In this document: piece after piece, positions 18,120 to 36,979 of the stretch
Layout of the letters: every line of letters starts with the position of its first letter
Numbering within the stretch: position 1 is the first letter of the stretch
From: Pseudooceanicola nanhaiensis
Lineage (GTDB): Bacteria; Pseudomonadota; Alphaproteobacteria; Rhodobacterales; Rhodobacteraceae
Length of the DNA stretch: 64,000 nt
Direction of reading: 5' to 3'
Assembly: GCF_020171315.1 (NCBI RefSeq)
Contig: NZ_JAIUZP010000017.1
Location: 1 to 64,000 of the forward strand
Made by a program: the position numbers and the translations under genes
The notes under the pieces: generated by a model
What the model saw: the letters and a program-made list of their open reading frames with translations, nothing else
Told to the model about the DNA's origin: nothing
The model's database searches: none

Positions 18120-18168
18120 GCCTGTATCTGCCTCCTGGTTGCTCTGTCTTGCCTCTGTTTTTGACCGG

Positions 18169-18184: not shown

Positions 18185-18210
18185 CAAGCCTTTTCAATGC
18201 GTTACGCGAT

Positions 18211-19146: not shown

Positions 19147-20338
19147 GGCTGGCTCCGCGGTTCCATGCGGCCTGGATCATCTTCTCGATGTCGTTGGAAA
19201 ACCCGATGACGGACTCGAGCGCCCGATCGTAGGTCTTGCGGTTCTTCGACCCGCTCAATTCCACCTCGAAGATCGTCTTCTGGGCCAGACCGGCCTCGCT
19301 GACGGCCGAGGATTTTACGAAGGGGGTCGGGATCACGCTGTCGCCCAGCAACTCGCGTATCCACTCGGACAGATCCTGCTGCGTGCTGATCGCGGTGTCG
19401 AAGCGGGTCAGCAGATAGGCGAAATTGTCGTAGGTCCCGACAGCGCCATTGGAATGGAGCACCTCGAGGATGCCCGACGCCATGGTCAGGAACTGGCTGG
19501 CCGAGGCGAGGTCGACCCGCTCGGGGATGATCGTCATCAGGAGCGAGGTCGAGGCGCAGACCGCAGACATCGTCAGGTAGCCAAGCTGCGGCGGGCAGTC
19601 AATCAGGACGATATCGTAATCGTCCTCGACTTGTCGCAGGGGCTCCCGGATCCGGTTGAAGAACACCGGCTGCTCGCCCCGGCTGAGGGCTGTGGGGGTC
19701 TCTGTCTCGAACTCGGACAGCATGATGCCCCCCGGTACGAGATCGAGATTGGGAAAATAGGTCGACTTGAGCACGTCGATCAGGGGCACGCGGGTGGTGT
19801 CACCCTCGTTGTAGCGGATCGCGTCATAGAGCGTGCCGCCCTCGCGGAAATCAATCTCGGGCTGGTAGCCGAAGAAGGTCGTCAGCGAGGCCTGCGGATC
19901 CGCGTCGATCAGCAGCACGCGGTAGCCCCGCAGCGCCAGCCGCATCCCCAGCGTGACCGTCGTCGTCGTCTTGCTCGACCCGCCCTTGAAGTTCACCGTC
20001 GACCAGATCTGCAGTTTGTCGCCCGGCTTGCGCCCGGGAAGGAACTGGTAAGGGTCCTTCGCCGTCTGGGACAGGATCTGGCGGATGTTCAGGATGTCAT
20101 CGCCGGTATAGAGCCGCTTGTTGCCCGGCCCCTGGAAGACCTCCGGCAGCTTGCCATCGAAATGGGCCTTGCGCAGGTAGCCGTCGGACACACGCAGCAG
20201 TTCCGCCACCTCGGAGGTGCTGAAGCTGCGCAGGGTCTTTTCCTCCTTGGGGGCAAGGAAGAGTTTCGACATGTGTTCGAGCGCCTCGGAGAGACGCTCT
20301 GCATCGGCCTTCAGCTTGTCGTGCAGCACCGGGTGCAT
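19136..20338 (-). CDS. repA: RepA, ParA-like partition ATPase
   Basis: A 400-residue ParA-type ATPase of the repABC family, which segregates the plasmid and represses the rep operon. Residues 1-110 contain the MerR-like DNA-binding region (SFSTSEVAELLRVSDGYLRK, then KRLYTGDDILNIRQIL). The deviant Walker A is FKGGSSKTTTTV (about residues 126-137), followed by VLLIDADPQASLTTFFGY and VLIDCPPQLGYLT. The C-terminus EKMIQAAW is typical. It overlaps repB by 11 bases and is the first gene of the operon; the promoter must lie to the right of 20338. Confidence 0.95.
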   Translation of the reverse strand: MHPVLHDKLKADAERLSEALEHMSKLFLAPKEEKTLRSFSTSEVAELLRVSDGYLRKAHFDGKLPEVFQGPGNKRLYTGDDILNIRQILSQTAKDPYQFLPGRKPGDKLQIWSTVNFKGGSSKTTTTVTLGMRLALRGYRVLLIDADPQASLTTFFGYQPEIDFREGGTLYDAIRYNEGDTTRVPLIDVLKSTYFPNLDLVPGGIMLSEFETETPTALSRGEQPVFFNRIREPLRQVEDDYDIVLIDCPPQLGYLTMSAVCASTSLLMTIIPERVDLASASQFLTMASGILEVLHSNGAVGTYDNFAYLLTRFDTAISTQQDLSEWIRELLGDSVIPTPFVKSSAVSEAGLAQKTIFEVELSGSKNRKTYDRALESVIGFSNDIEKMIQAAWNRGASHEA

Positions 20339-22585: not shown

Positions 22586-23797
22586 TCAGACGGTCCAGAG
22601 CTGGAGCGGCAGGTCGCTGAACGTCTCGACGCCGCGGCCCTCCTCTCCGATGGCAAAGGTCTGGCCGACGCCGGCGACGAGGCCGGTTTCGGTGTCGGGG
22701 ATCATGATGTGGACGAAGAACACCATGCCCGGGGTCAGCACCAGCGGGTTGCCGGTGTAGATCATCGGCGGCACGTCCATCCATGTCGGCTTGAAGGTAC
22801 AGCCGAGCGCATAGCCGCAGGCGGCATAGCGCGCCTTGGCAAAGCCCGCGCCGTCCAGCACGCTGCGGTGGATGTCGTCCAAAGTGCCCAGCCGTTCACC
22901 GGGCACGGCGGCCTCCTTGATCCGTTCCAGCGCCTCGATGGCGACGCCCATCTGGCTGACCTGCCGCGGGTCGGTCTTGCCGACCGAGACGGTGTGTTCG
23001 ATCACCACGTGGTAGCGGCAGGCAGAGCCCGCCAGCTCGATGAGGACCTGATCGTCCTCCTCGATCCGCCGGGGCCCGCCAATGCCGCGCCCGAAAAGCG
23101 CGCGGGGACCCACGTTCACCAGCGGCCCGCCCGAGGGCATGTCGGCCCCCGCGCCAAGCATCGCCGTGACGGCGGCGCCGGAGAGGGCGGAGTCAAAGGC
23201 GCCCGGGCGGGCGGCCTCGATCGCGGCCATGGTCGCGGTATCCGCAAGGCGCCCGGCGGCGCGCGTATAGTCGAGCTCCATCGGCGATTTCACCAGACGC
23301 TGCCCGCGCACGATATCGGAGGCATCCTCCAGCGTGCAGAAGCCTGCCATCGCCGCCTCGACCGAGCGGCCATTGGCGGCGGTCAGGCCGTAGGTGGCGA
23401 ATTCCACGCCCACCTTGGCCCCGCGCAGGCCCATCTCGTCCATGAGGTTGCGCAGGTCGATGGCGGGGTTCGCATCCTCGGCATTGAGCCAGATGCGCAC
23501 ATCATCATAGAGCGAATTGACCTCGGCCTGACGCTTGTCGGGCGTGCGGGTCAGCAGGGTGAGGGGGCCATCGGCGGCGGTCAGTATGCCGACCTGAAAG
23601 AAGACATACCCCGCCGTATCGAACCCGGTGAGGTAGAAGTGGCTTTCCTGCGCAAAGACCAGCAGCGCGTCGATGCCGCGCGCAGCCATCAGGGCACGGG
23701 TGCGGGCGATGCGGGCGCGGTACTCTGCTTCGGGAAAGCGCAGCGAGACGGCGCCATTGGCGCTCTGGCCGGTGTATTCGAGGGCGAGGTCGGTCAT
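22586..23797 (-). CDS. Metal-ligand-deficient M24 homologue A (creatinase/DoeA-like)
   Basis: A 403-residue protein with the creatinase N-domain (about 20-165, with FAQESHFYLTGFDTAGYVFF) and the pita-bread M24 domain (about 175-400). The metal ligands of aminopeptidase P/prolidase are gone: the Asp-containing strand reads VLIELAGSACRYHVVIEHTV (251-270), the GHG His site reads CGYALG (328-332), and the last Glu site is GVGQTF (Q379). Creatinase and ectoine hydrolase DoeA are known metal-free members, so hydrolysis of a small C-N bond rather than peptidase action is likely. It is the last gene of the seven-gene operon and overlaps the M20 gene by four bases. Confidence 0.88.
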   Translation of the reverse strand: MTDLALEYTGQSANGAVSLRFPEAEYRARIARTRALMAARGIDALLVFAQESHFYLTGFDTAGYVFFQVGILTAADGPLTLLTRTPDKRQAEVNSLYDDVRIWLNAEDANPAIDLRNLMDEMGLRGAKVGVEFATYGLTAANGRSVEAAMAGFCTLEDASDIVRGQRLVKSPMELDYTRAAGRLADTATMAAIEAARPGAFDSALSGAAVTAMLGAGADMPSGGPLVNVGPRALFGRGIGGPRRIEEDDQVLIELAGSACRYHVVIEHTVSVGKTDPRQVSQMGVAIEALERIKEAAVPGERLGTLDDIHRSVLDGAGFAKARYAACGYALGCTFKPTWMDVPPMIYTGNPLVLTPGMVFFVHIMIPDTETGLVAGVGQTFAIGEEGRGVETFSDLPLQLWTV

Positions 23798-25029
23798 GCC
23801 AGCTCACAGATATCGCAGAGGGTCATCAGGTAGATGCGGATGCAGTCGAGGTAATCGGTGATCTCGACCCGCTCGTCGGGCATGGTGTTGAACTTGCCGC
23901 CCGGCCCGCAGACGATCCCCTCCATGCCGCCATGTTCATAGAGGTGGCCTGCATCGGTGCCGAAATAGCCCGGGGGCGTGATCGCCCCGGTGGGTTGGGG
24001 CACGCCGCGCACCGCCTCGTAGGCCGCGTTGATCGCGGTGACGATGCGGCTGTCGCGGGCGACCTCGAAGGCGGGCATGATCGGGCGCCCTTCCTTGGCC
24101 TCGGAACGCACGGTGGCCTTGAGGCCCGGCATCCGCGCCACCAGCCCGTCCAGCACGCGCTGGATGTCGGCGAGGGCATTCGCCTCCGTCTGGCCCGGTC
24201 CGTAGCGGCCCGAGCCCTTGAGCCGCACGAAATCGGCCACCTGCGGAGGGCGCCATTCATGCAGGTCGCGGCCAAGCGCCCCGTGCATCACGCCGACGTG
24301 GACGCGGTTGATCGAGCGGTGTTCCTCGCTCGGCGCGTCGGAGAAGGTCATCTCCGTCAGTTCGGGGATCAGGGTGCAGGCCGCGAGGATCGCATCCACC
24401 GCCGCTTCGCGTTTCGAGAGGTGACGGGTGACGCCCTCCAGCTCGATCACGAAGGTGAAGGCGGCGGCATGCATCGTCACGGCCTGAAGGTCCGAAGGCT
24501 CGGAGTTGATGAAGTAATCCGCGCGCAGCCCCGCGTTCACGGCGGCCAGCGTGCCGACGCCGCCCTGAAGCTCGCCGATGACGAAGGTCAGGATCACGTC
24601 GCCCTTGAGGCGCACGCCGTTGCGGATCAGCGTTTCGACGGCCGAGAGGTATGCCGCATCGCCCGCCTTCATGTTCGACACGCCGATGCCGTAGATGAAT
24701 TCCTCGTCGATCTTCCCTTCCCAGGGATCGACCGTCCAGCCCTCGGTGACGGGGTTGGTGTCGAGGTGGCCGTTGAACAACAGGCTCTTGCCGCCGCCTG
24801 TCCCGCGCCAGATGCCGATGGCGTTCACGCGCTCGCCCTCGACCGGCATCAGGTAGGCCTCGTCGAGGCCGATCTCCTGCATCACCGCGACCATTCGCTC
24901 GGCCAGCACGCGCTCGCCCGGGGTTTCCGAGTAGCTCTTGTGCTGGACCATGTCGGCGAGGCGCGACAGGCAGGCGGGGGCGTCGATGCTGTCGGCAAGC
25001 GCCTTGGGGTCGATCTGGGGGGCAGTCAT
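23794..25029 (-). CDS. M20-family hydrolase homologue with altered metal site
   Basis: A 411-residue protein of the ArgE/DapE/CPG2 family. FNGHLDTNPV keeps the first ligand His88 and Asp90, and NSEPSD keeps Glu177. The bridging Asp is Asn119 (GIGVSNMKAG), the catalytic/metal Glu-Glu pair is Glu153-Leu154 (IGELQGG), and the last His position before PDE is Thr382 (KFNTMPDERVEI). The dimerisation domain (about 185-305) retains its conserved His (RHLSKREAAVDA). A normal two-zinc mechanism seems impossible; it could bind one metal, act as a partner subunit or use another mechanism. It overlaps its operon neighbours on both sides by four bases. Confidence 0.87.
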   Translation of the reverse strand: MTAPQIDPKALADSIDAPACLSRLADMVQHKSYSETPGERVLAERMVAVMQEIGLDEAYLMPVEGERVNAIGIWRGTGGGKSLLFNGHLDTNPVTEGWTVDPWEGKIDEEFIYGIGVSNMKAGDAAYLSAVETLIRNGVRLKGDVILTFVIGELQGGVGTLAAVNAGLRADYFINSEPSDLQAVTMHAAAFTFVIELEGVTRHLSKREAAVDAILAACTLIPELTEMTFSDAPSEEHRSINRVHVGVMHGALGRDLHEWRPPQVADFVRLKGSGRYGPGQTEANALADIQRVLDGLVARMPGLKATVRSEAKEGRPIMPAFEVARDSRIVTAINAAYEAVRGVPQPTGAITPPGYFGTDAGHLYEHGGMEGIVCGPGGKFNTMPDERVEITDYLDCIRIYLMTLCDICELA

Positions 25030-26714
25030 GCTTGGGGCTCCATCAGGTCCGGCTGGTCTTCGGGACGGTGCGGTACCGGCACCGCGTTCAGCAGCGCCTG
25101 CGTGTATGGGTGCCGCTCGGGCGATCCGGCGTCGGCCACGTCGAAGGCATCCACCAGCGCGCCGCGCTGGAAGACGACGATGCGGTGGGCCAGCTGGCGG
25201 ATCAGGTTCAGGTCATGGGTGATGAAGATGCAGGCCGCTCCGGACCGCTTTTGCAGGTCCACCAGCAGGCGCGCGACCGCCGCCTGCACCGAAACGTCAA
25301 GCGCGGCGGTGATCTCGTCGCAGATCACCAGCCGGGGTTCGGCGGCAAAGGCGCGGGCAATCGCCACGCGCTGCTTCTCTCCACCGGACAGCTGGTGCGG
25401 ATAGCGGCTGGCATAGTCCGCCGGCAGCAGCACCATCTCCAGCAGTTCGCGCACCCGTTGGCGCACCTCGCCCGCGGGGCAGAGCTTGTAGAGTTTCAGC
25501 GGGCGCGAGAGGATGCCGCCGATGGTTTCACGCGGATTCAGGCTCGAATCCGGGTGCTGGAAGATGATCTGCACATCGCGGCGATACTTGCGGTCGAAGG
25601 CGTCGCGGGAGGCGAAGCTGCGCCCGACGAAGCGGATTTCGCCCTCGAAGGGGTTCAGCCCGGTTGCCGCCTTGGCGATGGTCGACTTGCCCGATCCGCT
25701 TTCGCCCACGATGCCCAGCAACTCGCCCGGACGGACGTCCAGCGTGATGTTGCGCGCCCCCCAGTGGGCGGCGGCACTCTTGTCCAGCAGGCGGGTCAGC
25801 CAGCCGGGGGCGTTGTATTGCACGCCCACGTCGCGCGCCTCGAAGAGCGGCGTGTCCTCGGTGGGGGCGGGCAGGGCCAGCCGGTCCTCGGGACGGGGCA
25901 GGGCGGCCAGCAGCTTGCGCGTGTAGGGATGTTCCGGCGCGCCGAAGACGGTTTCCAGATCGCCCTGTTCGACGATCTTGCCCTTGTGGATGACCGACAC
26001 CTTCGAGGCGATCCGCGCCACCAGCCCCAGATCGTGAGTGATGTAGAGCGCGGCCACCCCGGTCTCTTCCCGCAGGCGGATGAAGAGGTCGAGGATCTGG
26101 TTCGCCGTCAGGATGTCGAGCGCGGTGGTCGGCTCGTCAAAGATGATCAGTTCGGGATTGCAGGCGAATGCCGTGGCGATCACGACGCGCTGCTTTTCCC
26201 CGCCCGAGCATTCGTGCGGATAGCGCATCATCATCTCGGCGGGCTTGACGATGCCGGTGCGAGCCAGGGCGGCCTCGCCCTCGACCCAGGCTTCGGTCTT
26301 GGTCATGCCGCGGTGCCGGATCAGCACCTCGGTCAGCTGTTCCCCCAGCCGCATGGTCGGGTTCAGCGACGACGAGGGGTCCTGATAAACCATGGCGATG
26401 CGGCGGCCGCGCAGGGCCTCCAGCTCGGCCCGGCCCTTGCCGATCATGTCCTCGCCCGACAGCAGGATCGCCCCGCCGGTGTCGCGGGCGTTTTCGGCCA
26501 TGTAGCGGGTGATGGCCCAGGCGAGCGTCGACTTGCCCGAGCCGCTTTCGCCGACGAGGGCGTGGGTCTCGCCCCGCCAGATCATCAGCGACACGTCGTC
26601 GAGCGCGGTGGTGGTCCCGGCCTCGGTGTCATAGGCCATCGAGTAGTGGCGCACGTCAAGGACGGGGGCCTCGGACTGCGGTTTGCCCCGGTCGGTGCGG
26701 ATACGGCTGCCCAT
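25026..26714 (-). CDS. Fused double ABC ATPase of a family 5 (dipeptide-type) importer
   Basis: A 562-residue protein with two complete nucleotide-binding domains, equivalent to DppD plus DppF. Domain 1 (about 18-270) has GESGSGKSTLAW, ECSGGEKQRVVIA and LIIFDEPTTALD; domain 2 (about 300-550) has GESGSGKSTIAK, QLSGGEKQRVAIA and ICDEITAALD. In domain 2 the Walker B tail reads DEITAALD instead of DEPTSALD, a common variant. The usual C-terminal oligopeptide motif (EHPYTRKLLAALP) follows domain 1. It powers uptake with the two permeases; start ATG overlaps the permease stop by one base. Confidence 0.93.
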   Translation of the reverse strand: MGSRIRTDRGKPQSEAPVLDVRHYSMAYDTEAGTTTALDDVSLMIWRGETHALVGESGSGKSTLAWAITRYMAENARDTGGAILLSGEDMIGKGRAELEALRGRRIAMVYQDPSSSLNPTMRLGEQLTEVLIRHRGMTKTEAWVEGEAALARTGIVKPAEMMMRYPHECSGGEKQRVVIATAFACNPELIIFDEPTTALDILTANQILDLFIRLREETGVAALYITHDLGLVARIASKVSVIHKGKIVEQGDLETVFGAPEHPYTRKLLAALPRPEDRLALPAPTEDTPLFEARDVGVQYNAPGWLTRLLDKSAAAHWGARNITLDVRPGELLGIVGESGSGKSTIAKAATGLNPFEGEIRFVGRSFASRDAFDRKYRRDVQIIFQHPDSSLNPRETIGGILSRPLKLYKLCPAGEVRQRVRELLEMVLLPADYASRYPHQLSGGEKQRVAIARAFAAEPRLVICDEITAALDVSVQAAVARLLVDLQKRSGAACIFITHDLNLIRQLAHRIVVFQRGALVDAFDVADAGSPERHPYTQALLNAVPVPHRPEDQPDLMEPQA

Positions 26715-27532
26715 CAGTGGCCCCTCTTCGGATCGAAGGCGTCACGCAGGGCGTCGCCGAACAGGTTGAACCCCAGCGCGGTGATCGCGATGGCGAGGCC
26801 CGGCACGGCCACGCACCAGGGGTTGCGGAACATGAACTGCCGCGCCTCGGCGACCATCAGGCCCCATTCGGTCGAAGGCGGCTGCGCGCCGAGGCCGAGG
26901 AAGCCGAGCGTCGCGCCGATCATGATGGCAAAGCTGACGCGGATCGTCGCCTCGACGATGATCGGGCCGAGGGCGTTTGGCAGCACCTCGCGGCCCACGA
27001 TCCAGGCGCGGCTTTCGCCACGGGCCTGGGCGGCGAGGACGTATTCGCGGGTCCGGACGGACAGGACGGCGCTGCGGGCGATCCGGGCCATGCCGGGGGT
27101 GAAGGTGACGGCCACGGCCAGCATCGCCTGCGTGGTGCCGCCGCCCAAGAAGGTGACGATCAGCAGGGTGAAGAGCAGCTCGGGCATGGCCAGCATGCCA
27201 TCGAGGATGCGCATGATGATGCTGTCGGTGCGCCCGCCCGCGACACCGGCGATAACCCCGATGACGGAACCGACGCCGACACCGAGGATCGTGGCGCCGA
27301 GGCCGAAGGCCACGGTGGAGGGCGCGCCGCTGAGGATGCGCGAGAGAAGGTCACGGCCATATTGGTCGGTGCCCAGCCAATGCGCCATGGAGGGTCCCTG
27401 AAGACGGGCGCGGGCGTCGAAGGCCTGCGGGTCATAGGGCGCGATCCACGGGCCAAAGACGGTGGCGAACAGGACGATGGTCAGCAGGATCACCCCGATG
27501 ATCCCGGTGGGAGACTTCAAAATCTTACGCAT
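26714..27532 (-). CDS. ABC importer permease, DppC type
   Basis: A 272-residue inner-membrane permease with six predicted helices. The N-terminal GPWIAPYDPQAFDARARLQG and HWLGTDQYGRDLLSRILSGA are diagnostic for DppC/OppC proteins. The cytoplasmic EAA loop reads EYVLAAQARGESRAWIVGRE followed by LPNALGPIIV. It overlaps the DppB-type gene by eight bases and the ATPase gene by one. It forms the translocation pore with the DppB-type partner. Confidence 0.93.
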   Translation of the reverse strand: MRKILKSPTGIIGVILLTIVLFATVFGPWIAPYDPQAFDARARLQGPSMAHWLGTDQYGRDLLSRILSGAPSTVAFGLGATILGVGVGSVIGVIAGVAGGRTDSIIMRILDGMLAMPELLFTLLIVTFLGGGTTQAMLAVAVTFTPGMARIARSAVLSVRTREYVLAAQARGESRAWIVGREVLPNALGPIIVEATIRVSFAIMIGATLGFLGLGAQPPSTEWGLMVAEARQFMFRNPWCVAVPGLAIAITALGFNLFGDALRDAFDPKRGH

Positions 27533-28475
27533 AGCGCACCCGCGGATCGAGCTTGGCGATGATCAGGTCCGCAATCAGGTTGGTGATGGCATAGACCACC
27601 GCCAGCAGAAGGGTGACGGCCTGAATGACGGGCAGGTCGCGGTTTTGCAGCGCGTAGATCAGCAGCCGGCCGAGGCCGGGCCAAGCAAAAATCTCCTCCA
27701 CCACGATGATGCCGCCCAGCAGGTAGCCGATGTCGAGAGAGATCACCGCGACGGCCGGGGCCAGCGAGTTCGGCAGCGCGTGGCGGCGGATGACGCGGCC
27801 CTCGGGCACGCCCTTGAGGCGCGCGGCGCGGACGTAGTCGGAGGTCAGCACCTCGGACAGCTCGGAACGGACCTGCCGCGAGATATGCGCCATCAGGATC
27901 AGCCCCAGCGTTGCCGAGGGCAGGATGGCATGTTTGATGAAGCCACCGAAATCCTCCGCCGGGGCGACGAATCCGCCCGCGGGCAGCAGTTGGCGTACCG
28001 GATCGGCGAAGAAGACCAGCAGCAGCGTGGCGGTCACGAATTCAGGCAGCGCAGTGCCGACGTAGGAGATCAGGCCGATGCCAAGATCCCAGATCGTGCC
28101 CCGCTTCAGCGCCGCGAAGGTGCCAAGCGGGATCGCGATGACGGTGACGCCCACAAGGGCGATCGCCGCAAGGGCCATGGAGTTCCAGAAAGCCTCGCCC
28201 ACGATCTGGGCGACTGGCAATTGCAGCCTCAGGGAGGTGCCGAAATCGCCGTGCAGGACACCGCCGACCCAGTGCAGGTATTGCACGAGAACCGGCTGGT
28301 CGAGCCCGAGCTGGCGTTCCATCGCGGCGAGGTTCTCGGCAGAGGCGTTCTCTCCGAGGATCATCAGCGCGGCGTTGCCCGGCAGGATGGTGGTAATGGC
28401 GAAGACGGCAACACTGACGATGCAAAGCACCGCCAGCACTGCGCCGAGTCGTCTGAGGAAGTAGGCGAGACTCAC
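27525..28475 (-). CDS. ABC importer permease, DppB type
   Basis: A 316-residue inner-membrane permease. The N-terminus MSLAYFLRRLGAVLAVLCIV and the periplasmic region with ERQLGLDQPVLVQYLHWVGG, LHGDFGTSLR are typical of DppB/OppB. The EAA loop is DYVRAARLKGVPEGRVIRRH followed by ALPNSLAP. It starts 10 bases after the solute-binding protein gene ends, inside the seven-gene minus-strand operon. Confidence 0.93.
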   Translation of the reverse strand: MSLAYFLRRLGAVLAVLCIVSVAVFAITTILPGNAALMILGENASAENLAAMERQLGLDQPVLVQYLHWVGGVLHGDFGTSLRLQLPVAQIVGEAFWNSMALAAIALVGVTVIAIPLGTFAALKRGTIWDLGIGLISYVGTALPEFVTATLLLVFFADPVRQLLPAGGFVAPAEDFGGFIKHAILPSATLGLILMAHISRQVRSELSEVLTSDYVRAARLKGVPEGRVIRRHALPNSLAPAVAVISLDIGYLLGGIIVVEEIFAWPGLGRLLIYALQNRDLPVIQAVTLLLAVVYAITNLIADLIIAKLDPRVRYA

Positions 28476-28485
28476 TGGTGTTTCC

Positions 28486-30027
28486 TCAGGCCTTGTTCAT
28501 CCAGACATCCTCGATGAAGAAGAACCGCGAGATCGGCGCGATGTGCCAATCGACGGTGGTCTCCCGCGAGGCGGTCAGCACGTCTTCGTAGAAGGGAACG
28601 ATGTAGGGGCTTTCGTCCAGTTCCAGCGCCTGCGCCTTGGCATAGATCTCGGCCCGCTTCTCGGGATCGACGGTCGAACGGCCCTCGGCGACCAGCGCGT
28701 CGAACTCTGCGTTCTTCCACTCGGTGTCCTGATAGGAGGCGTCCGAGGTCAGCAGCAGGTTGTAGGTCGCGTCGATGGTGGGCTGCATGCCCCAGTAGCC
28801 GATGTAGAAATCGCCCTTCATCCATTCCTCGGCGAGGTAGGTGTCGTGCGGCATCGTCTTGATCTCGACGTCAAAGCCCGCGGCGCCGGCGGTCTGCTGG
28901 ATCGCGATCGCGGTCTGGGCGCGGATCGCCGGACGGTCGGAGGCGACGAGGGTCACCTTCAGGCCATCGGGGTAGCCGGCCTCGGCCAGCAGGGCGCGGG
29001 CGGCCTCGGGATCATAGGGGATCACGGGCTTGTCGGTGGCATATTCCAGCTCGGGCGCGACGATCGAGTCGTAGGCCGGACGGCCGAGGCCTTCGAGGAT
29101 GACATCGACGAGCAGTTCGCGGTCCACGGCCATGCCGAAGGCCTTGCGGACGCGGACGTCGTTCCACGGTTCCTGATCCTGACGCATGACGACGCAGACA
29201 TAGCGGCCCGAGCCGACCTGCTGCGCATCGACACCCGCGCTGTCCGAGATGCGCTGGAAATCTGCCTGCTGCACGGTCAGCATCACGTCGGTCGCGCCGG
29301 ACAGGAAGTTGGCGGTTTCGGCGGCGAGGTCGGGGAAGAGCATCATCTCCACCGCGTCCAGATAGGGCTGGCCGGGCTTGTAGTAGTTCTCGTTTTTCAC
29401 GAGGCGGACCATGCGGGCGCTGTCATAGGTTTCCAGCTTGAACGGGCCGGTGCCGTTCGCGGTGGTGTCCAGCTTGGTCAGGTCGCCATCGAGCGCCGCG
29501 CGCGAGACGATGCGGGCGTTTGCATGGGCGGTGGAGTAGGGCAGGTCGGCGAAGGGTGCGCTGAGGGTGAATTTAACCGTCAGGTCATCCACGGCCTCGA
29601 CTTTCTCGACCATCTTCAGGACCGAACGGGCGGCCGAGGGGATGTCGGGGTTCAGGATCGCCTCGTAGGTGGCGACCACGTCATCGGCGGTGAAGGGCGT
29701 GCCGTCGTGGAAGGTGACGCCTTCGCGCAGGATGAACGTGAATTCGGTTGCGTCGTCGTTCGCGCTCCACTCGGTGGCGAGATCGGGGTGCGGCTGGTTG
29801 TCCAGACCCGTGCGGGTCAGGCCGGAATAGAGCATGTCGATGCAGGGGTATTCCGCCGGGCCCGACAGGCTGAGGACGTTCAGCGTGGCAATCCGGGTCG
29901 AGTGGCTGATCTTCAGCGTGCCGCCCGAGACGGGCGTGGCCCCTTGGGCAAAGCTCATGCCGGGCAGGGCGGTGCTGGCCGCGAGTCCCATCAGGACGTG
30001 ACGGCGGGAGAGGGTGAAGTGGCTCAT
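28486..30027 (-). CDS. Family 5 extracellular solute-binding protein
   Basis: A 513-residue periplasmic binding protein of the DppA/OppA class. The N-terminus MSHFTLSRRHVLMGLAASTA has a twin-arginine motif, so Tat export is likely. Core motifs include LATEWSANDDATEFTFILRE and GVTFHDGTPFTADDVVATYE, then NGTGPFKLETYDSARMVRLV, all typical of family 5. It decides the substrate of the importer: family 5 proteins carry peptides but also opines, nickel, glutathione and other small amides. It follows the M24 homologue B by 62 bases and precedes the permease genes. Confidence 0.93.
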   Translation of the reverse strand: MSHFTLSRRHVLMGLAASTALPGMSFAQGATPVSGGTLKISHSTRIATLNVLSLSGPAEYPCIDMLYSGLTRTGLDNQPHPDLATEWSANDDATEFTFILREGVTFHDGTPFTADDVVATYEAILNPDIPSAARSVLKMVEKVEAVDDLTVKFTLSAPFADLPYSTAHANARIVSRAALDGDLTKLDTTANGTGPFKLETYDSARMVRLVKNENYYKPGQPYLDAVEMMLFPDLAAETANFLSGATDVMLTVQQADFQRISDSAGVDAQQVGSGRYVCVVMRQDQEPWNDVRVRKAFGMAVDRELLVDVILEGLGRPAYDSIVAPELEYATDKPVIPYDPEAARALLAEAGYPDGLKVTLVASDRPAIRAQTAIAIQQTAGAAGFDVEIKTMPHDTYLAEEWMKGDFYIGYWGMQPTIDATYNLLLTSDASYQDTEWKNAEFDALVAEGRSTVDPEKRAEIYAKAQALELDESPYIVPFYEDVLTASRETTVDWHIAPISRFFFIEDVWMNKA

Positions 30028-30089
30028 GGTGGTCTCCGTGCTGGTGTGCCCTCGCGGGCGCTTTTGTTGTTAGAGAGGGGTCTTCGGGA

Positions 30090-31268
30090 TCACGTGATGA
30101 CGGTGAGGTCGTCCGGCAGGCCGGTCAGGACCTCCGGCGCGCCCTCGGTGACGAGCAGAGTGTGCCCGACGCCCATGGCGAGGCCGGTGTCCCCGTCGCC
30201 GTTCATCACGTGGTAGAAGAGGGTCATGCCCGGCTCGCAGCGCATGGCGGCGCCCGGGTAGATCATCGGCGGCACGTCCATCGAGGTGGGCGCATAGGAG
30301 ATGCCCACCGAATAGCCCGTGGCGCCATAGCGCGCGCGGCCATAGCCCGCGGCATCGAGGCCATTGGCATAGGCATCGAAAATCTCGCCCAGCGTGGTGC
30401 CGGGGCGGGCGAGGTCGGTCATCTTGGTCAGCACCTCGCGGCCCACGTCGTACATGTGGCGCTGCTTGTCAGGGACTTGGCCGAAGAGGATCGTCCACTC
30501 GGTCTTCACGTTGTAGTGGCGGTAGGCCACCGGGTACTCGACGAGGATCTGGTCCTGCGCCTCCAGCTTGCGGGGCTTGGTGACGCCCCGGCCAAAGACC
30601 GCGCGTTCGCCCGAGTTGAAGAGCGGCGCGTTCGGCGGCATGTCCGCCCCGTCGCCGAGGATCGAGGCGAGGTAGGCCGCCTTCAGGTCGCTGTCGAGCA
30701 GGCCGGGGCGCGCCGTTTCGATCACCGCATCGAGGGCGCGGTCGCAGATCTGACCCGCGGTGCGCATGATCTCGATCTCGGCGGGGCTCTTCACCAGCCT
30801 CAGGAAGCGCAGCATCTGTTCGTCATGTTCCAGCCGGCACCAGTCGCCGAAGGTCTGCTGGCAGCGCCAGAGGTTCCAGCCCGTCAGCCCGTGGGTGTTG
30901 AGCTCGATCAGCACGCGGCCGCCCTGCAGCCCCAGCTCGCCCAGAATGTCCTTCAGGTCGGCGGCGGGATTGGCGTCGTCCGCGTCCTGCCAGATGCGGA
31001 TGTCCTCGATGGTCGAGGTCATCTTGGCCTGCAGCAGGTCGGGCCGCCGGGTCAGCAGGGTGATGGGCCGGTCATCGGCCGTCACAACCGCGCACTGGAA
31101 AAAGACAAAGCCGCCCGAATCATAGCCGGTGAGCCAGAACAGGCTCTCCTGACTGAAGACGAGCATCGCATCTGCCCCCCGCTCGCGCAGCTTGGCGCGC
31201 AGCCTGTCTTGCCGGGCAAGCAGGTCTGTCTTGGGGAAGGGCAGCATGGATTGGGGCGTCACGGACAC
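30090..31268 (-). CDS. Metal-ligand-deficient M24 homologue B (creatinase/DoeA-like)
   Basis: A 392-residue relative of homologue A. The N-domain has LVFSQESLFWLTGYDSGGFV; the C-domain has FNSGERAVFGRGVTKPRKLE, QILVEYPVAYRHYNVKTEWT in place of the Asp strand, GYSVGISYAPTSMDVPPMIY in place of the GHG His site, and GVGHTLLV (His) where the last Glu should be. It is therefore expected to be metal-free like creatinase. I chose GTG 31268, eight bases after AAGGAG; the open frame extends to 31436 but that part covers the promoter. First gene of the minus-strand operon, divergent from the GntR gene. Confidence 0.87.
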   Translation of the reverse strand: MSVTPQSMLPFPKTDLLARQDRLRAKLRERGADAMLVFSQESLFWLTGYDSGGFVFFQCAVVTADDRPITLLTRRPDLLQAKMTSTIEDIRIWQDADDANPAADLKDILGELGLQGGRVLIELNTHGLTGWNLWRCQQTFGDWCRLEHDEQMLRFLRLVKSPAEIEIMRTAGQICDRALDAVIETARPGLLDSDLKAAYLASILGDGADMPPNAPLFNSGERAVFGRGVTKPRKLEAQDQILVEYPVAYRHYNVKTEWTILFGQVPDKQRHMYDVGREVLTKMTDLARPGTTLGEIFDAYANGLDAAGYGRARYGATGYSVGISYAPTSMDVPPMIYPGAAMRCEPGMTLFYHVMNGDGDTGLAMGVGHTLLVTEGAPEVLTGLPDDLTVIT

Positions 31269-31334
31269 GGGGCAGGCTCCTTCAGGCGCTTTGGCCTTCA
31301 CCTCGGAAAGTCTTTGCACTGACGTTATGCGCTC

Positions 31335-31342
31335 GGTATACC
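31335..31342. promoter_or_regulatory. Candidate GntR operator 1 (GGTATACC)
   Basis: The 8-base palindrome GGTATACC lies within TCGGTATACCAG between the divergent M24 B and gntR genes. Read leftward, it sits between a -35-like TTGACC and a -10-like CATAAC about 16 bases apart, a position that would block transcription of the transport operon. The 11-base match TCGGTATACCA recurs at the second promoter of the locus. Confidence 0.65.
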
Positions 31343-31450
31343 AGTGGTCAACCGACGGAATACATTTCGAAGACCGAGATCGCGCAACTTGCCCGATATG
31401 GGGCATTTCGGGCAGAAGGCTGCAACGCGCGCACAATCGGAGACCGCCTG

Positions 31451-32101
31451 ATGCTGACCACGCCCGACAAACGACTCGCCCTGCAGGCCTATGACCGGCT
31501 GCTCGAACTGATTCAGAGCGGCGAGTTGAAACCCGGCGACGTCATCAACGAGCGTCGCATGGCCGAGGTGCTGGACATGTCGCGGACGCCCGTGCGCGAT
31601 GCGCTCCTCATGCTGGAAGGCGAGGGGCTGCTGATCCGCTACGGCCGGGCGCTGCAGGTCAAGCAGATGCGGATCGAAGACTTCATGGACACGCTCCAGA
31701 TCCGGATGCTGTTGGAGCCCGCGACCGCGCGCATGGCGGCGGGCAATATGGCGGCGGAAGAGATCGCGGCGCTGCGCGCGGATCTGGAACAGGTTCTGGC
31801 CTCCGAAGTGGACGGCCGCGCGGACCGGTCCCTCGTGCGCGGGATCGACGAGCGGCTGCACGGCGGGATCGCCGACGCGGCGGGGAACCCTCAGCTGGGC
31901 CAGCTGATCCGCACGCTGCGGCGCCAGACCCAGATGTTCGACCTGCGCGCCGTCCCCGAACGGCTGACGGACACCTGCCGCGAACACGGTGACATCCTCG
32001 ACGCCATCGCGCGTGGCGACGGCGAGGCGGCGGCGGTCGAGATGAGCGCCCATCTTCAGGGCGTCCGAGACAGTATTATCAAGAGATTGAGCAAAGCATG
32101 A
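31451..32101 (+). CDS. GntR-family regulator, FadR/FCD subfamily
   Basis: A 216-residue regulator. The winged helix (about 5-75) contains LLELIQSGELKPGDVINERR and MAEVLDMSRTPVRDALLMLE, followed by the FCD effector domain (about 78-210). The FCD metal-binding pattern is visible: IDERLHGGIADAAGNP (Asp and His), EHGDILDAIARGD and EMSAHLQGVRDSI. Such regulators usually release DNA when a carboxylate-type effector binds. It overlaps the amidohydrolase gene by four bases and is divergent from the transport operon. The GGTATACC sites at 31335 and 33501 are its likely operators. Confidence 0.92.
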   Translation: MLTTPDKRLALQAYDRLLELIQSGELKPGDVINERRMAEVLDMSRTPVRDALLMLEGEGLLIRYGRALQVKQMRIEDFMDTLQIRMLLEPATARMAAGNMAAEEIAALRADLEQVLASEVDGRADRSLVRGIDERLHGGIADAAGNPQLGQLIRTLRRQTQMFDLRAVPERLTDTCREHGDILDAIARGDGEAAAVEMSAHLQGVRDSIIKRLSKA

Positions 32102-33399
32102 CAGTGACTGCCGCACCGGCGCAGCTTTCCCCGACCCAGACGGCCATCGTACCGGACATCGCCCTCGCCGCGCGGCTCTTTGACGAGTTGCGCGCCCGCA
32201 CCGGCGGAACGAACGGCATCAACCGGGTGTCCTACGGGCTGGGGGAGCAGATCGCCCATGACATGGTGCGGCGCGAGGCGCTGAAGCTCGGCATGCGGGC
32301 CGAGATGGACGCGGCCTGCAATCTCTACCTGACCATGGAGGGCGCGGGCGACGGCCCCGCAATCATGATCGGCTCGCACCTCGATTCGGTGCCGTCGGGC
32401 GGAAACTTTGACGGGGCAGCTGGCGTGCTGGCTGGCCTTGCCGTGGCGGCGGGCTTCCACGCGGCGGGTCGCAAACCCCCGGTGGATCTGGTCATCATGG
32501 CGGTCCGGGCCGAGGAAAGCACGTGGTTCGGCGCGTCCTATATCGGCAGCCGCGCGGCCTTCGGCAAGCTGACGGGCAAGGAGCTGGACGAGGTGCGTCG
32601 CGCCGGGGACGGCATCGCACTGGGCGTTGCGATCGACGCGGCGGGCGGCGACAGTCAGACGCTCAAGGCGGGCACGCCTCATCTGGACGCCAAGCGCATC
32701 GGTCTCTTCCTTGAGCCGCATATCGAACAGGGCCCGGTCCTCGTGGCCGAAGACCTGCCCATCGGCATCGTGACAGGGATTCGCGGCAGCTTCCGCCATC
32801 GCCATGCCTCCTGCCGGGGGGAATATGCCCATTCCGGCGCCACCCCGAAGCGCGTGCGGCAGGATGCGGTGCTGGCGACCAGCCAGCTGATCGTCGCCAT
32901 GGACGAGGCCTGGCAGCGGCTGGAGGCCGAGGGCCGCGATCTGGCCGTCACCTTCGGGCAGAACGCCACCGTCGCGGGCGAGGCTGCCTTTTCCAAGGTC
33001 GCCGGACGCACCGATTTCGCCCTCGACACCCGCAGCGCCGAGCCCGAAACGCTGGACCTGATGCGGGGTGAGCTGAAGCGCATCGTGCAGGGCATCGAAC
33101 AGCGGCAGGGCGTGCGCTTTGAGCTGGGCGCCGAAACCGGCAGCACGCCCGCCCGGATGGATGAGGCCGTCATCACTCGGCTGGAAACCATTGCCGAGGC
33201 CAAGGGCATTCCCGCCAAGGTCATGGCCTGCGGCGCCGGGCACGATGCCGCGGTCTTTGCCGCGCAGGGCGTGCCCACGGCGATGGTTTTCATCCGCAAC
33301 CGCAACGGCTCGCACAATCCGCATGAGGCGATGGAGATCGCAGACTTCGCCGCCGCAGCGCAGGTGATCGCCGGGCTCTGCGAAAGCTGGTCCGCCTGA
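32098..33399 (+). CDS. Zn-dependent amidohydrolase, allantoate/N-carbamoyl-L-amino acid hydrolase family
   Basis: A 433-residue M20-type hydrolase of the HyuC/AllC/beta-ureidopropionase group. The two-metal site is complete: IGSHLDSVPSGGNFDGAAGV (about 92-111), RAEESTWFGASYIGS, EPHIEQGPVL and NGSHNPHEAMEI near the C-terminus. This group cleaves ureido or amide groups from linear compounds such as allantoate, N-carbamoyl amino acids or N-formyl/N-acyl amino acids. It is translationally coupled to the GntR gene. Within this locus it is the only hydrolase with an intact classical metal centre, so it may perform the final amide cleavage. Confidence 0.92.
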   Translation: MTVTAAPAQLSPTQTAIVPDIALAARLFDELRARTGGTNGINRVSYGLGEQIAHDMVRREALKLGMRAEMDAACNLYLTMEGAGDGPAIMIGSHLDSVPSGGNFDGAAGVLAGLAVAAGFHAAGRKPPVDLVIMAVRAEESTWFGASYIGSRAAFGKLTGKELDEVRRAGDGIALGVAIDAAGGDSQTLKAGTPHLDAKRIGLFLEPHIEQGPVLVAEDLPIGIVTGIRGSFRHRHASCRGEYAHSGATPKRVRQDAVLATSQLIVAMDEAWQRLEAEGRDLAVTFGQNATVAGEAAFSKVAGRTDFALDTRSAEPETLDLMRGELKRIVQGIEQRQGVRFELGAETGSTPARMDEAVITRLETIAEAKGIPAKVMACGAGHDAAVFAAQGVPTAMVFIRNRNGSHNPHEAMEIADFAAAAQVIAGLCESWSA

Positions 33400-33500
33400 C
33401 GGCGCGCACCCGTCCCTGATCGAAAATCAAGCAACGCCGCCCTTGCCCCAGCGTGGCAGGGGCCCCGCGACCGGTTTCGGTTGCCGACCGGAATTCCCTT

Positions 33501-33508
33501 GGTATACC
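33501..33508. promoter_or_regulatory. Candidate GntR operator 2 (GGTATACC)
   Basis: The second GGTATACC palindrome, read on the minus strand as TTCGGTATACCAAG, lies 31 bases before the amidotransferase start. TATACC (33503-33508) would be the -10 of a promoter with -35 TTGCCG (33481-33486), spacing 16, so the operator overlaps the -10. It shares 11 bases with operator 1. Confidence 0.65.
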
Positions 33509-33539
33509 GAATTTGACGCCTGAATCGAGAGGACCCGAC

Positions 33540-34244
33540 ATGGCCAAGAAACGCCTGCTTTACCTGGGCAATGGACGCTCGCTGCAATCCGTGGCGAAGC
33601 TCGACGACCGCTTCGAGAGCTGGGGCCTCGCCGTGGATCGCTACTGGGCCTACAACGGCGAATTTCCCGCCGCGCTCGACGGCTATGACGGCATCTTCCT
33701 CTCCGGCAGCCCGCACGGCGCCTACGAGGAGATCGACTGGATCGATCGCGAACACGACCTGATCCGCGATGCCGCCGAGAAGGACATCCCGCAGCTTGGT
33801 ATCTGCTTCGGCAGCCAGATCCTCGCCTCGGCGCTCTGCGGCAAGGACCAGGTCTTCCGCCGCGATTTCTGCGAGGTCGGCTACAAGGACCTGACCGTGC
33901 ATCCCGCGGCCAAGGACGATCCGCTGGCCGCCGACTGGCGCGAGACCGTGAACATGTTCGTCTGGCACAACGACGAGGTCCGGCACGGGCATGAGGACAT
34001 GGTGATCCTCGCCAGTTCCGATCTCTGCCCGAACCAGGTCTGGCGCCACCGCACCGCCCCCGCCTGGGGCATCCAGGGCCACCCCGAAGTCACGCAGGCG
34101 CAGGCGCCCGAGTGGTTCGAGGGCAACCGCGCCCGCATGGTGCAGGACGGCGGCGACGTCGACGATTTCATCGCCTCCGCCCATGATGCGGCCGAGGCCA
34201 AGACAATGATCACGCGGTTCGTCGAACTGGTGGAACGGGGCTGA
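33540..34244 (+). CDS. Class I glutamine amidotransferase-like hydrolase
   Basis: A 234-residue single-domain GATase1 protein. The catalytic Cys is in LGICFGSQILASALCG (about residue 85), and the His-Glu pair is in WGIQGHPEVTQAQ near residue 180. HNDEV is also typical. Free-standing members of this family include gamma-glutamyl hydrolases of catabolic pathways (PuuD-like and GMP synthase-like forms). GAGAGGA lies upstream of ATG 33540. It has its own promoter with the shared operator and is followed after three bases by the third M24 homologue. Removal of a gamma-glutamyl or amide group from an intermediate is the inferred role. Confidence 0.88.
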   Translation: MAKKRLLYLGNGRSLQSVAKLDDRFESWGLAVDRYWAYNGEFPAALDGYDGIFLSGSPHGAYEEIDWIDREHDLIRDAAEKDIPQLGICFGSQILASALCGKDQVFRRDFCEVGYKDLTVHPAAKDDPLAADWRETVNMFVWHNDEVRHGHEDMVILASSDLCPNQVWRHRTAPAWGIQGHPEVTQAQAPEWFEGNRARMVQDGGDVDDFIASAHDAAEAKTMITRFVELVERG

Positions 34245-34247
34245 GAC

Positions 34248-35384
34248 ATGGTCGAGACGAATTACTGGTTCGAACCCGCCGAATACCACGCGCGCCTTGC
34301 CCGCGTGCAGGCCGCGCTGAAGGAAAAGGGGCAGGACGCCCTCCTCGCCTTCCTGCCCGAAACGGTGACATGGCTGACCGGCTATTTCACCCGCGCCTAC
34401 GGCACCTTCCAGTTCGCCATCATCCCCGCCGAAGGGCAGCCCACGCTTTTCGCCCGCGATGTGGAGGAATACTACCTCGACAGCACCTGCGTCTTCCCCG
34501 ACCGCGTCCTCTGGACCGACAGCGATGACCGCACCGCCGTCGCGGTCGAGGCGATCCGCAGCCGGATCGGCGCCACGGCCCGGATCGGGGTCGAGATGGA
34601 CGCCTGGGTGCTGAACGCCAGCCGCTGGGAGGCGATCCGCGCCGCAATGCCCTCGGCCGAGTTCGTGAACGAGTCGGCCCTCGTGCCGACGATGAAGCTG
34701 ATCAAGTCCGAGGCCGAGATCGCCTATCAGCGCCGCGCCGCCCACGCGGCTGAGGCCGGGATGCAGGCCGGGATCGACACCGCCGGCACCGGCGTGACCG
34801 AACGCGAAATGGCCGCCGCGATCTGTGCCGCCATGATCCGCGAAGGCTCCGACCTGCCCGGGCCGGGCGTGCTCTCCTCGGGGGAGCGGGCCTATCACCT
34901 GCACGGTGGCTACTCCGACCGGGTGATGCAGCGCGGCGATATCGTGCAGCTGGAGGTAACGCCGAACAACCACCACTACCACGCCCGCTTCATGCGCCCG
35001 ATCCGCGTGGCAGAGGCAAGCGACGCTGACCACCGCCTCGCCGAGCAGCTGATCGCGATTCAGGACGCGGCGCTTGCCGCCGTTGCCCCCGGCGTCGCGG
35101 CCACCGTGCCCGACAGCATCTACCGGGACGGCATCCTCTCGGCCGGCCTGCGCGAGACCTACACGAACAAGACCTTCTACTCGGTCGGTCTCCTGCTGCA
35201 GCCCAATGGCGGCGAACCGATGGAAGCGCATCCCGGCGCAGAGTGGAGCTTTGCCGAGGGCATGGTGTTCCACAGCTACGTTCTGGCAAAGGGCTTCGGC
35301 ATGTCCGAGACCATCGTGGTGCGCAAGGACGGGGCCGAACGGCTGACGAACTTCCCGCGTCAGCTCTTTGTCACCAAGACCTGA
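34248..35384 (+). CDS. Metal-ligand-deficient M24 homologue C
   Basis: A 378-residue creatinase-fold protein (PAEYHARLARVQAALKEKGQ at the start, ETVTWLTGYFTRAYGTFQFA in the N-domain). It keeps the His of the PHG-type loop (AYHLHGGYSDRVMQRGDI) and the final Glu (GMSETIVV), but the metal Asp strand reads IVQLEVTPNNHHYHARFMRP, and the GHG His site reads FYSVGLLL. It is thus a different variant from homologues A and B, closer to creatinase/DoeA in keeping catalytic His and Glu. It starts three bases after the amidotransferase stop. Confidence 0.87.
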   Translation: MVETNYWFEPAEYHARLARVQAALKEKGQDALLAFLPETVTWLTGYFTRAYGTFQFAIIPAEGQPTLFARDVEEYYLDSTCVFPDRVLWTDSDDRTAVAVEAIRSRIGATARIGVEMDAWVLNASRWEAIRAAMPSAEFVNESALVPTMKLIKSEAEIAYQRRAAHAAEAGMQAGIDTAGTGVTEREMAAAICAAMIREGSDLPGPGVLSSGERAYHLHGGYSDRVMQRGDIVQLEVTPNNHHYHARFMRPIRVAEASDADHRLAEQLIAIQDAALAAVAPGVAATVPDSIYRDGILSAGLRETYTNKTFYSVGLLLQPNGGEPMEAHPGAEWSFAEGMVFHSYVLAKGFGMSETIVVRKDGAERLTNFPRQLFVTKT

Positions 35385-35485: not shown

Positions 35486-36979
35486 TCAGGCGGTGCTTCC
35501 GGCCGGTTTGCGCAGGGCCAGCTTGTAGTCCAGCAGCGTCAGATCAGACACGACGCAGCCGGGTGCCACGCCCATGACGATGGCCCGCGCCATGTCCTGA
35601 TACGCCCCCCGGAAATGGACCGAGCTTTTCAGCACGAGGATCGCCTGCTCTTCGGGCACCAGCCCCAGATGCATCAGCAGCCCGGGCTCCGAGGCCTGCA
35701 TCTTGCGCGGCGCAACGATGACGCGGACACCGTCCCGTTCCAGCAGAGCGACCGGCCCAAGGGCAATCGGGTTGCCGCGGTACATCGGGCCGACACCGGT
35801 GAAGGACCCGTCCCCCAGCGCCACCACCGTCCAGGGGCCGGGCACGGGATCGCCATACTCCCGCGACAGGCCCGCACCGATGGCGAGATCGACCACGCCG
35901 CCCAGACCGGCCGCATGGGCAGCGAGGCTGGCAGGTTCATCCGCGATATGCACCATGACGGCACCCACGGCCTTGCCCGCCAGCAGCGCGTGCAGCATCC
36001 CCGTGGTGTCGCCGGAGCCGCCCCCGCCCGGATTGTCCTGCGTGTCCGAGATCACGACAGGCCCCGTGCCGGGACCGGCGGCCAGGGCCACCGCCTCGGC
36101 CACCGCCTGGGCGGCGGGGACACGGCGGGTGTGGAACGCGCTCTCGGCCCGGCACCAGAGGTTCAGCATATGCTCGGCCGCGGCCTCGACCGCGGCCGGG
36201 TCCTGGCCCTGCACGATCATCGCGGGGCCGGAGTCCGGCACATCCGCCAGCGGGAAGCCAAAGAACTGGCTGATCTCCTCGATCCCCGGTGTCGCGGCAA
36301 TCAGCGCGTCGGCCGCCGCCAGTAGGCCCTTGGTCGGCTCGAGGAAGGTGCATTGCTCGGGCGCGGGCACGAGGAAGGGCACGGCGCGGTAGGCCAGCAC
36401 CGGCGCGGGCGCCCCATCAAGATGCGCGATCAGCCGCTCCATCGTGCGGGCGCCGGTGTCCTTGAGATCGGTGTGCGGATAGGTGCGGTAGCAGTCCAGC
36501 AGCGTCAGGTCGCGCACCATCGCCTCGGAGATGTTGCCATGCAGGTCGAAGGAGGCCACGATCGGGAAGGGCGCGGGCGCGATCTTGCGCAGTCGGCGGA
36601 TCAGTTCGCCCTCGGCATCAGGCCAGCTGACGGCGGCCATGGCACCATGGAGATCGAGGTAGAGCGCCTCGGCGCCTGCCGTGAGGGCCGCTTCGAAACC
36701 GCGGCAAATGTCGCACGCGATGTCGTCGAAGGCCGCATCCTCGACCGGCCCGGACGGCAGGCCGATGCACCACAGGATCGGCACCACCTCGACGCCCGCC
36801 GCGTCCGCGACCCGCAGGGCCCCCGCCATCGGTGTGCCGGTCCCGCGCATGATGCGCCCCATCTCCTCCCCGCGGCAGAAGGCCGGCCAGCCGCCCGGGC
36901 GGTCGAACTCCGACCGCGGCGTCCTTCGGCCGGCAAAGCTGTTGGTTTCATGCTGAAATCCGGCGGCGGCGATCTTCAT
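35486..36979 (-). CDS. M81-family metallopeptidase, MlrC (microcystinase C)-like
   Basis: A 497-residue protein. It begins KIAAAGFQHETNSFAGRRTP, with the HETN signature of MlrC. DLHGAMAAV, SFDLHGNISEAMV and YRTYPHTDLKDTGART supply the Asp and His zinc ligands, and ISDTQDNPGGGGSGDTTGML opens the conserved C-terminal region. MlrC was described in microcystin breakdown, but most homologues sit in unrelated catabolic clusters and probably cleave other peptides or amides. Start ATG 36979. It is convergent to the M24 locus and not clearly part of its operons. Confidence 0.88.
   Translation of the reverse strand: MKIAAAGFQHETNSFAGRRTPRSEFDRPGGWPAFCRGEEMGRIMRGTGTPMAGALRVADAAGVEVVPILWCIGLPSGPVEDAAFDDIACDICRGFEAALTAGAEALYLDLHGAMAAVSWPDAEGELIRRLRKIAPAPFPIVASFDLHGNISEAMVRDLTLLDCYRTYPHTDLKDTGARTMERLIAHLDGAPAPVLAYRAVPFLVPAPEQCTFLEPTKGLLAAADALIAATPGIEEISQFFGFPLADVPDSGPAMIVQGQDPAAVEAAAEHMLNLWCRAESAFHTRRVPAAQAVAEAVALAAGPGTGPVVISDTQDNPGGGGSGDTTGMLHALLAGKAVGAVMVHIADEPASLAAHAAGLGGVVDLAIGAGLSREYGDPVPGPWTVVALGDGSFTGVGPMYRGNPIALGPVALLERDGVRVIVAPRKMQASEPGLLMHLGLVPEEQAILVLKSSVHFRGAYQDMARAIVMGVAPGCVVSDLTLLDYKLALRKPAGSTA

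Follow-up and report, generated by a model that had tools for sequence, protein, structure and literature searches.

A putative GntR-controlled catabolic regulon with metal-free M24 homologues on a probable plasmid of Pseudooceanicola nanhaiensis

Introduction

What pathway is served by a group of eleven genes that includes three homologues of the M24 family without the metal ligands of prolidase? The question is raised by a 64,000-nucleotide stretch of DNA, here called the window, which comprises bases 1-64000 of a 64133-base contig (NZ_JAIUZP010000017.1) in a 4.8 Mb genome assigned to Pseudooceanicola nanhaiensis. The eleven open genes lie at 22586-35384 of the window. They probably form the plasmid part of a single catabolic regulon under GntR control, the rest of which lies on the chromosome. 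This reading is drawn from sequence comparison: a conserved gene set, a shared site (TGGTATACCA), a chromosomal part carrying the same mark, and the loss of metal ligands. The regulon, with its new branch of metal-free M24 proteins, is apparently undescribed; no description of this gene combination or pathway was found in the open-licence full-text literature, as judged from titles and the starts of abstracts. Through the locus, a pathway found across many Alphaproteobacteria and some Gammaproteobacteria gains a defined set of genes, clear partner genes and a site for its regulator.

Gene content and replicon

The original prediction had described eleven contiguous genes in two divergent units, and the open frames confirmed this arrangement. 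Nine of the eleven genes were scanned with Pfam and NCBIfam models and all nine fitted their families; the two permeases were identified from Terrarubrum matches instead. The features are listed below (SBP, solute-binding protein; the Arg clade, the column signatures and the locus types are described in later sections).

22586-23797, minus strand: M24B, an Arg-clade M24 homologue without metal ligands, signature R-E-V-Y-H-G (Pfam M24 and Creatinase_N; alignment columns)
23794-25029, minus strand: M20 homologue, about three of five M20 metal positions altered (Pfam M20)
25026-26714, minus strand: ABC importer ATPase, two domains fused (two ABC_tran stretches)
26714-27532, minus strand: ABC importer permease 2 (open frame; 73% to an annotated Terrarubrum ABC permease)
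27525-28475, minus strand: ABC importer permease 1 (open frame; 68% to an annotated Terrarubrum ABC permease)
28486-30027, minus strand: family-5 SBP (SBP_bac_5, 306 bits)
30090-31301, minus strand: M24A, an Arg-clade M24 homologue without metal ligands, signature R-E-K-Y-H-G (Pfam; alignment columns; structure model)
31334-31343, no strand: operator-like site CGGTATACCA, between M24A and GntR, recurring there in type-I loci
31451-32101, plus strand: GntR/FCD regulator (GntR and FCD domains)
32098-33399, plus strand: HyuC, hydantoinase/carbamoylase-family amidohydrolase with intact metal-ligand motifs (family models, alignment)
33500-33509, no strand: operator-like site TGGTATACCG, 30 bp upstream of the GATase1 ATG; other type-I loci have it at the same place in the PxpA/GATase1 promoter
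33540-34244, plus strand: GATase1, class-I glutamine-amidotransferase-fold hydrolase (PF00117; Cys-His-Glu triad intact)
34248-35384, plus strand: M24C, metal-free M24 homologue with the conserved His kept, signature H-E-R-Y-Y-S (family scan, alignment columns, structure model)

The start of M24A may lie anywhere from 31301 to 31247. That of GATase1 is best set at 33540 (234 aa), a correction to the gene list.

Genes for RepC, RepB/ParB and ParA stand consecutively at 16851-20338 of the window. The 64.1-kb contig is therefore probably a repABC plasmid, and the pathway would be divided between plasmid and chromosome. The complete eleven-gene block was also found, at 94-99%, in a genome of the window's own genus, and the closest named relative among the matches listed was Maritimibacter alkaliphilus (97% in M24C).

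Conservation of the neighbourhood

Relatives were collected by scanning a genome collection with an alignment of M24C, and the best 80 of 116 were used, closely related strains being counted unthinned. Nine further loci (five from plasmid records; four on contigs that recur among the 80) bring the gene orders read to 89 and enter none of the type counts. In 72 of 78 testable loci GATase1 immediately preceded M24C or was separated from it by one SBP gene; in the remaining two of the 80, M24C was too near the end of the stretch for this adjacency test. A conserved pathway cluster, as opposed to scattered genes, is thus what the neighbourhood search returned. Many Alphaproteobacteria have this neighbourhood, as do some Gammaproteobacteria (Pantoea, Erwinia, Serratia). 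When 385 genomes were sampled evenly across the class, both GATase1 and M24C had matches in two, the same for each and one of them the window's own; there the two genes were adjacent or 1.4 kb apart.

The 80 loci comprised 39 of type I, 31 of type II and 10 of neither type. Type I combines a family-5 importer and M24A with GATase1-M24C and, usually, GntR and HyuC; the type is defined by the presence of M24A or the family-5 SBP, so the counts for these two hold by construction. HyuC was present in 33 of the 39, PxpC in 26, a D-2-hydroxyacid dehydrogenase (D2HDH) in 25, PxpA in 23 and PxpB in 20, while the M20 homologue was absent from some. An M24B ortholog of at least 67% identity was present in 25 of 28 records tested (26 of the type-I loci plus L049 and L019, chosen because the fetched stretch held no M24B ortholog) and was not found in the records of L072, L079 and L098. 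Type II shows the order GntR-GATase1-SBP-M24C; its importer is of the polyamine type, and a DapA-family aldolase is encoded in 11 of the 31 loci. Hosts of this type include Bosea, Gluconobacter, Acetobacter, Pantoea, Erwinia and Serratia.

Two variants of the surroundings of M24C were observed. In L021 a gene of the C26 family, which we take to be that of gamma-glutamyl hydrolases, stands beside M24C and no GATase1 was found there. In L016, L072 and L076, two of which are on the same contig, genes resembling by eye a molybdenum hydroxylase pair and a nucleoside-type ABC ATPase are beside M24C.

The chromosomal part

The window locus is without D2HDH and PxpABC. On contig C8 of the same genome, PxpA is divergent from PxpB-PxpC-GntR-D2HDH-HyuC-GntR-VOC-DUF1989-ureohydrolase, in which VOC is a glyoxalase-fold protein, the ureohydrolase belongs to the agmatinase family, HyuC is the second in the genome and GntR occurs twice; some family names in this module were assigned from a second Maritimibacter (G005). 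Adjoining the PxpA module is an amino-acid ABC importer, accompanied by an M24 of the metal type. This M24 was considered as a dimethylsulfoniopropionate lyase and rejected (39 bits against a cut-off of 600).

The same module was followed in relatives. Ten genomes had the M24 locus with no PxpABC seen nearby; in nine of these the best PxpA match was 69-85% identical to the Maritimibacter chromosomal PxpA, and in the tenth 44%. Nine of these regions were read. In five (Rhizobium lusitanum, Allosediminivita, Falsirhodobacter and two Cohaesibacter) all or part of the module directly adjoins the M24 locus; in Tropicimonas it lies about 15 kb away on the same contig, and in the other three on a different contig. 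In R. lusitanum both parts stand end to end. The two Cohaesibacter loci (L041, L092), chosen as lacking a local PxpABC, had HyuC and PxpA just outside the fetched stretch.

Given the missing D2HDH and PxpABC, the co-marked C8 module and the abutting parts elsewhere, a locus complete in itself was abandoned as an explanation. The pathway appears to extend beyond the window to the co-marked chromosomal cluster, and D2HDH and PxpABC are chromosomal in this genus.

The shared palindromic site

The mark that joins the two parts is the palindrome TGGTATACCA, which has one copy between M24A and GntR and a second upstream of GATase1. Its core, GGTATACC, occurs twice in the window, exactly at these two places (0.08 expected). 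Exact cores were at pathway gene starts in 54 of 59 cases in the type-I loci and in 15 of 16 in the type-II loci, with 2.7 cores expected by chance in all 1.30 Mb of loci; seven control palindromes were near pathway gene starts in 35 of 208 cases.

The form YGGTATACCR occurs at seven sites in the window's genome (G000). The plasmid locus accounts for two of them, and another two flank chromosomal PxpA, one before PxpA/PxpB and the other before the amino-acid ABC importer. G005 has six sites, likewise with two at the locus and two flanking PxpA. The site was also found 80-165 bp upstream of PxpA in Falsirhodobacter and both Cohaesibacter, at 129 bp in Oceanicella (by coordinates), and between DUF1989 and a metal-type M24 in R. 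lusitanum, 108 bp before DUF1989.

Several results weigh against a single regulon. GATase1 was not adjacent to M24C in 6 of the 78 loci, one of them near a contig end. A core stood at a pathway start in 32 of 39 type-I loci, but in just 14 of 31 of type II. Genome-wide, YGGTATACCR was not clearly enriched over the reversed control (seven against five in G000, six against six in G005), and in several other genomes its count was equal to or below the control; it is therefore the placement of the site, not its number, that counts. Of the nine modules read, five (G456, G457, G460, G471, G487) showed no site at PxpA. Sites of the TGGTATACCA type presumably resemble those of the FCD family generally, so the chromosomal copies may serve chromosomal GntR proteins. 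With one representative taken for each subunit, PxpA and PxpB each passed a model, while PxpC scored 230 bits against the 5-oxoprolinase cut-off of 500; the lactam need therefore not be 5-oxoproline.

The M24 proteins

An alignment of 191 distinct M24 rows from the window, its relatives and the same genome was read at the column of the conserved His and at the five prolidase metal columns. Metal-type rows (n = 3) had D-D-H-E-E in two cases and T-D-H-E-E in one. M24A had R at the His column and E-K-Y-H-G at the ligand columns in 43 of 43 rows. M24B had R in 14 of 14, with E-C-Y-H-G or E-V-Y-H-G in 13 of 14 and one row cut off. M24C had E-R-Y-Y-S in 82 of 83 rows, one being cut off, and the conserved His in 83 of 83; the two DoeA rows had H and E-P-Y-M-T. 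The last ligand column is sensitive to the alignment, because M24C and DoeA carry Glu one column further. The prolidase set was altered in every M24A, M24B and M24C row covering the columns, which confirms the original prediction that all three proteins lack these ligands.

The prediction had also likened all three to creatinase and DoeA. The His conserved in those two enzymes has a catalytic role. For M24C, which keeps it, the likeness stood; for M24A and M24B it did not, because Arg replaces this His throughout their clade. Judged by these columns, the three metal-free homologues are of two different kinds, M24C and the Arg-clade pair. Arg was at the His column in 88 of the 89 rows that best matched M24A or M24B, the remaining row being of the metal type. 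Of the 88 Arg-clade rows, 86 had Arg, Glu, Tyr and His in the same alignment columns; of the other two, one carries Phe in place of His and one is cut off.

A tree of 94 of the 191 rows, made by a quick method with Shimodaira-Hasegawa-like approximate likelihood ratio (SH-aLRT) supports alone, placed the Arg rows on one side of a branch (SH-aLRT 100) with M24A and M24B as sister groups, and set both M24C and M24A/M24B apart from DoeA and creatinase; it carries a long-branch warning that includes creatinase and the chromosomal metal-type M24. AlphaFold models, of fair confidence, gave a predicted local distance difference test value of 88 for M24A, with DoeA as best fold (template-modelling score 0.86), and of 86 for M24C, with PepE, DoeA and creatinase as best folds. 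M24C had no match in the viral collection. In the even sample the Arg clade matched 76 of 385 genomes and M24C 2 of 385.

M24A and M24B might together form an obligate two-gene pita-bread enzyme of a new mechanistic class, working with the Arg-Glu-Tyr-His set in place of a metal and a catalytic His and heading a widespread, unrecognised pathway that consumes an abundant nitrogen compound of the lactam or ureide type; this is a speculative and, on balance, unlikely proposal. In the plasmid records read, Arg-clade members bear the label 'Xaa-Pro peptidase family protein', an activity that is unlikely because they have lost the metal ligands; once a substrate is assigned, many genes now misnamed could be placed in a named pathway.

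Some wider M24 neighbourhoods were noted in passing. Six wider Arg-clade members (L137-L142) have differing neighbourhoods, none of which points to a substrate of the pathway. At L137 1663-10522 an Arg-clade M24 (48% to M24A) stands with an M20-family gene, a polyamine-type importer and a protein of sarcosine-oxidase/GcvT type, which may hint at the substrate of the wider clade. At L152 6875-9107 (a Salipiger plasmid) and L012 351-2604 (G005) a metal-type M24 gene stands next to a metal-free one. The L152 pair is accompanied by an M20 gene and an ABC importer and could represent a sister system of similar design.

The other enzymes and the importer

The GATase1 triad Cys-His-Glu was kept in 80 of 80 rows used and the HyuC metal-ligand motifs in 43 of 43, short rows having been excluded from both alignments; HyuC scored 244 bits against the TIGR01879 cut-off of 204. 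The M20 homologue keeps the motifs VSNMKAG, GELQGG and NTMPDE in the window and in ten orthologs (five partial), and its best PDB match was 5-nitroanthranilate aminohydrolase (5e-13). It seems to have lost three of what we take to be the five M20 metal positions.

The best PDB match of the window SBP was AgaA (6hlx, 1.5e-48), with other family-5 SBP structures scoring nearly equally. Among solved structures the type-II SBP, a member of a large family (722 plasmid records), ranked MotA second and the agropine permease sixth. AgaA, MotA and agropine permease presumably bind opines. Opine importers are thus the best or near-best solved relatives of both SBP types, but the likeness is at family level only.

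Comparison with known pathways

DoeA is described as resembling creatinase and as required for growth on ectoine (PMC3187862). The window proteins share with the ectoine pathway (doeABCD/eut) the metal-free M24 hydrolase fold, and DoeA is the best solved relative by sequence of all three. Against the DoeA models, however, M24A, M24B and M24C scored 120-174 bits with cut-offs of 575 and 613, they branch separately, and M24A and M24B lack the His. The genome has a separate DoeA-like gene (559 bits against the cut-off of 613). In Haematobacter doeB follows doeA, and neither doeB nor a creatinine gene was found among the nine scanned genes of the eleven, as had been predicted.

Creatinase likewise has the M24 fold without the prolidase metal set, and M24C, with its conserved His, matches creatinase 1chm. 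The match (1.5e-15) stands against about 1e-155 for the genome's own creatinase, a separate gene on contig C5 (9e-157 to 7yto), and the window M24 genes branch apart from it. No creatinase was among the 32 solved-structure matches of M24B or among the best 60 of 62 for M24A. Both an ectoine and a creatine pathway are therefore ruled out by the DoeA scores, the tree position and the separate creatinase, in agreement with the original prediction.

5-Oxoprolinase PxpABC, seen in relatives and on the chromosome outside the window locus, is resembled in that all three subunit families stand in one cluster; it differs in that PxpC is below the equivalog cut-off and that HyuC and D2HDH accompany the subunits in most type-I loci. 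Hydantoin utilisation employs HyuABC plus a racemase. A HyuC-family amidohydrolase with an ATP-dependent ring opener is common to both systems, and a protein of the Asp/Glu/hydantoin racemase family was found in two relatives; here, however, the ring opener is PxpABC, not HyuAB, and M24 and GATase1 have no counterpart.

Proposed mechanism and substrate

In the regulon favoured here, the FCD-type GntR protein would occupy the palindromic site and be released from it by the imported compound or an intermediate. The compound would be taken up by the family-5 ABC importer. GATase1 would hydrolyse an amide, PxpABC would open a lactam using ATP, and HyuC would cleave the resulting N-carbamoyl or amide group. 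M24C could cleave a C-N bond without a metal, like creatinase and DoeA, and M24A and M24B may act as a matched pair, probably one heteromeric enzyme. As substrate, our best, still tentative, candidate is a small amide-bearing nitrogen compound that forms a lactam and has a ureido or amidino group, and which might serve as nitrogen and carbon source. The amidino-, ureido- or gamma-glutamyl-type compound first predicted is compatible with the findings.

Two more specific versions of the substrate were weighed, which are not mutually exclusive. The first is a cyclic or open guanidino or ureido derivative of an amino acid, with ring opening by PxpABC, release of urea by M24C or the ureohydrolase, and decarbamoylation by HyuC. 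It is a possibility we hold at somewhat less than even. The HyuC family and the solved metal-free M24 relatives, DoeA and creatinase, agree with it, as do the co-marked chromosomal module with its DUF1989 and agmatinase-family proteins and the site before DUF1989 in R. lusitanum. DUF1989 is the family to which carboxyguanidine deiminase is assigned (PMC11271267), but this domain is reported in trimethylamine N-oxide demethylase too (PMC12560246), and among the compared modules the ureohydrolase was found solely in Maritimibacter and DUF1989 solely there and in R. lusitanum.

Rather unlikely is the second version, an N-substituted glutamine or a gamma-glutamyl or 5-oxoprolyl conjugate of opine-like or Amadori-like kind, in which GATase1 would remove the side-chain amide and PxpABC open the lactam. 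The GATase1 fold and the PxpABC family suit such a compound, and the C26-family gene of L021, the opine-related rankings of both SBP types and the DapA-family aldolase of type II point the same way. Other SBPs nevertheless score about equally, the type-II SBP family is large, PxpC is under the 5-oxoprolinase cut-off, and HyuC and the M24 proteins are left without a clear role.

M24A, M24B and the M20 homologue might instead be non-catalytic, binding the compound or stabilising a complex, with the chemistry left to M24C, GATase1, HyuC and PxpABC. The changes at all five metal positions and at the conserved His in M24A/M24B, and at about three of five metal positions in the M20 homologue, would fit, and active/inactive cognate pairs have been described, such as metformin hydrolase MetCaCb, with carboxyguanidine deiminase named as similar (PMC11271267). 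We nonetheless doubt it: the constancy of Arg, Glu, Tyr and His in 86 of 88 rows suggests selection on an active or binding site, and the Arg clade, with its 76 genomes against two for M24C, does not depend on M24C. Ordinary peptide scavenging is very improbable, for although an SBP_bac_5 oligopeptide importer and peptidase families are present, the M24 metal ligands are gone, those of the M20 homologue are gone in part, and PxpABC, HyuC and D2HDH are no peptidases.

Neighbouring genes in the window

Convergent with M24C, a gene resembling M81/MlrC-family metallopeptidases lies at 35486-36976, followed by an IMPase gene at 37124 and an ABC operon. The M81 and IMPase genes were set aside as members of the locus because they are co-directional with the ABC operon at 37.9-43 kb and neither is a recurring partner; in the gene orders of relatives IMPase gave a single match (32%, in L019). 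Beside the replication genes a Fic/DOC family protein is encoded at 15634-16740, and a long DUF3604 protein (773 bits) at 54471-56429.

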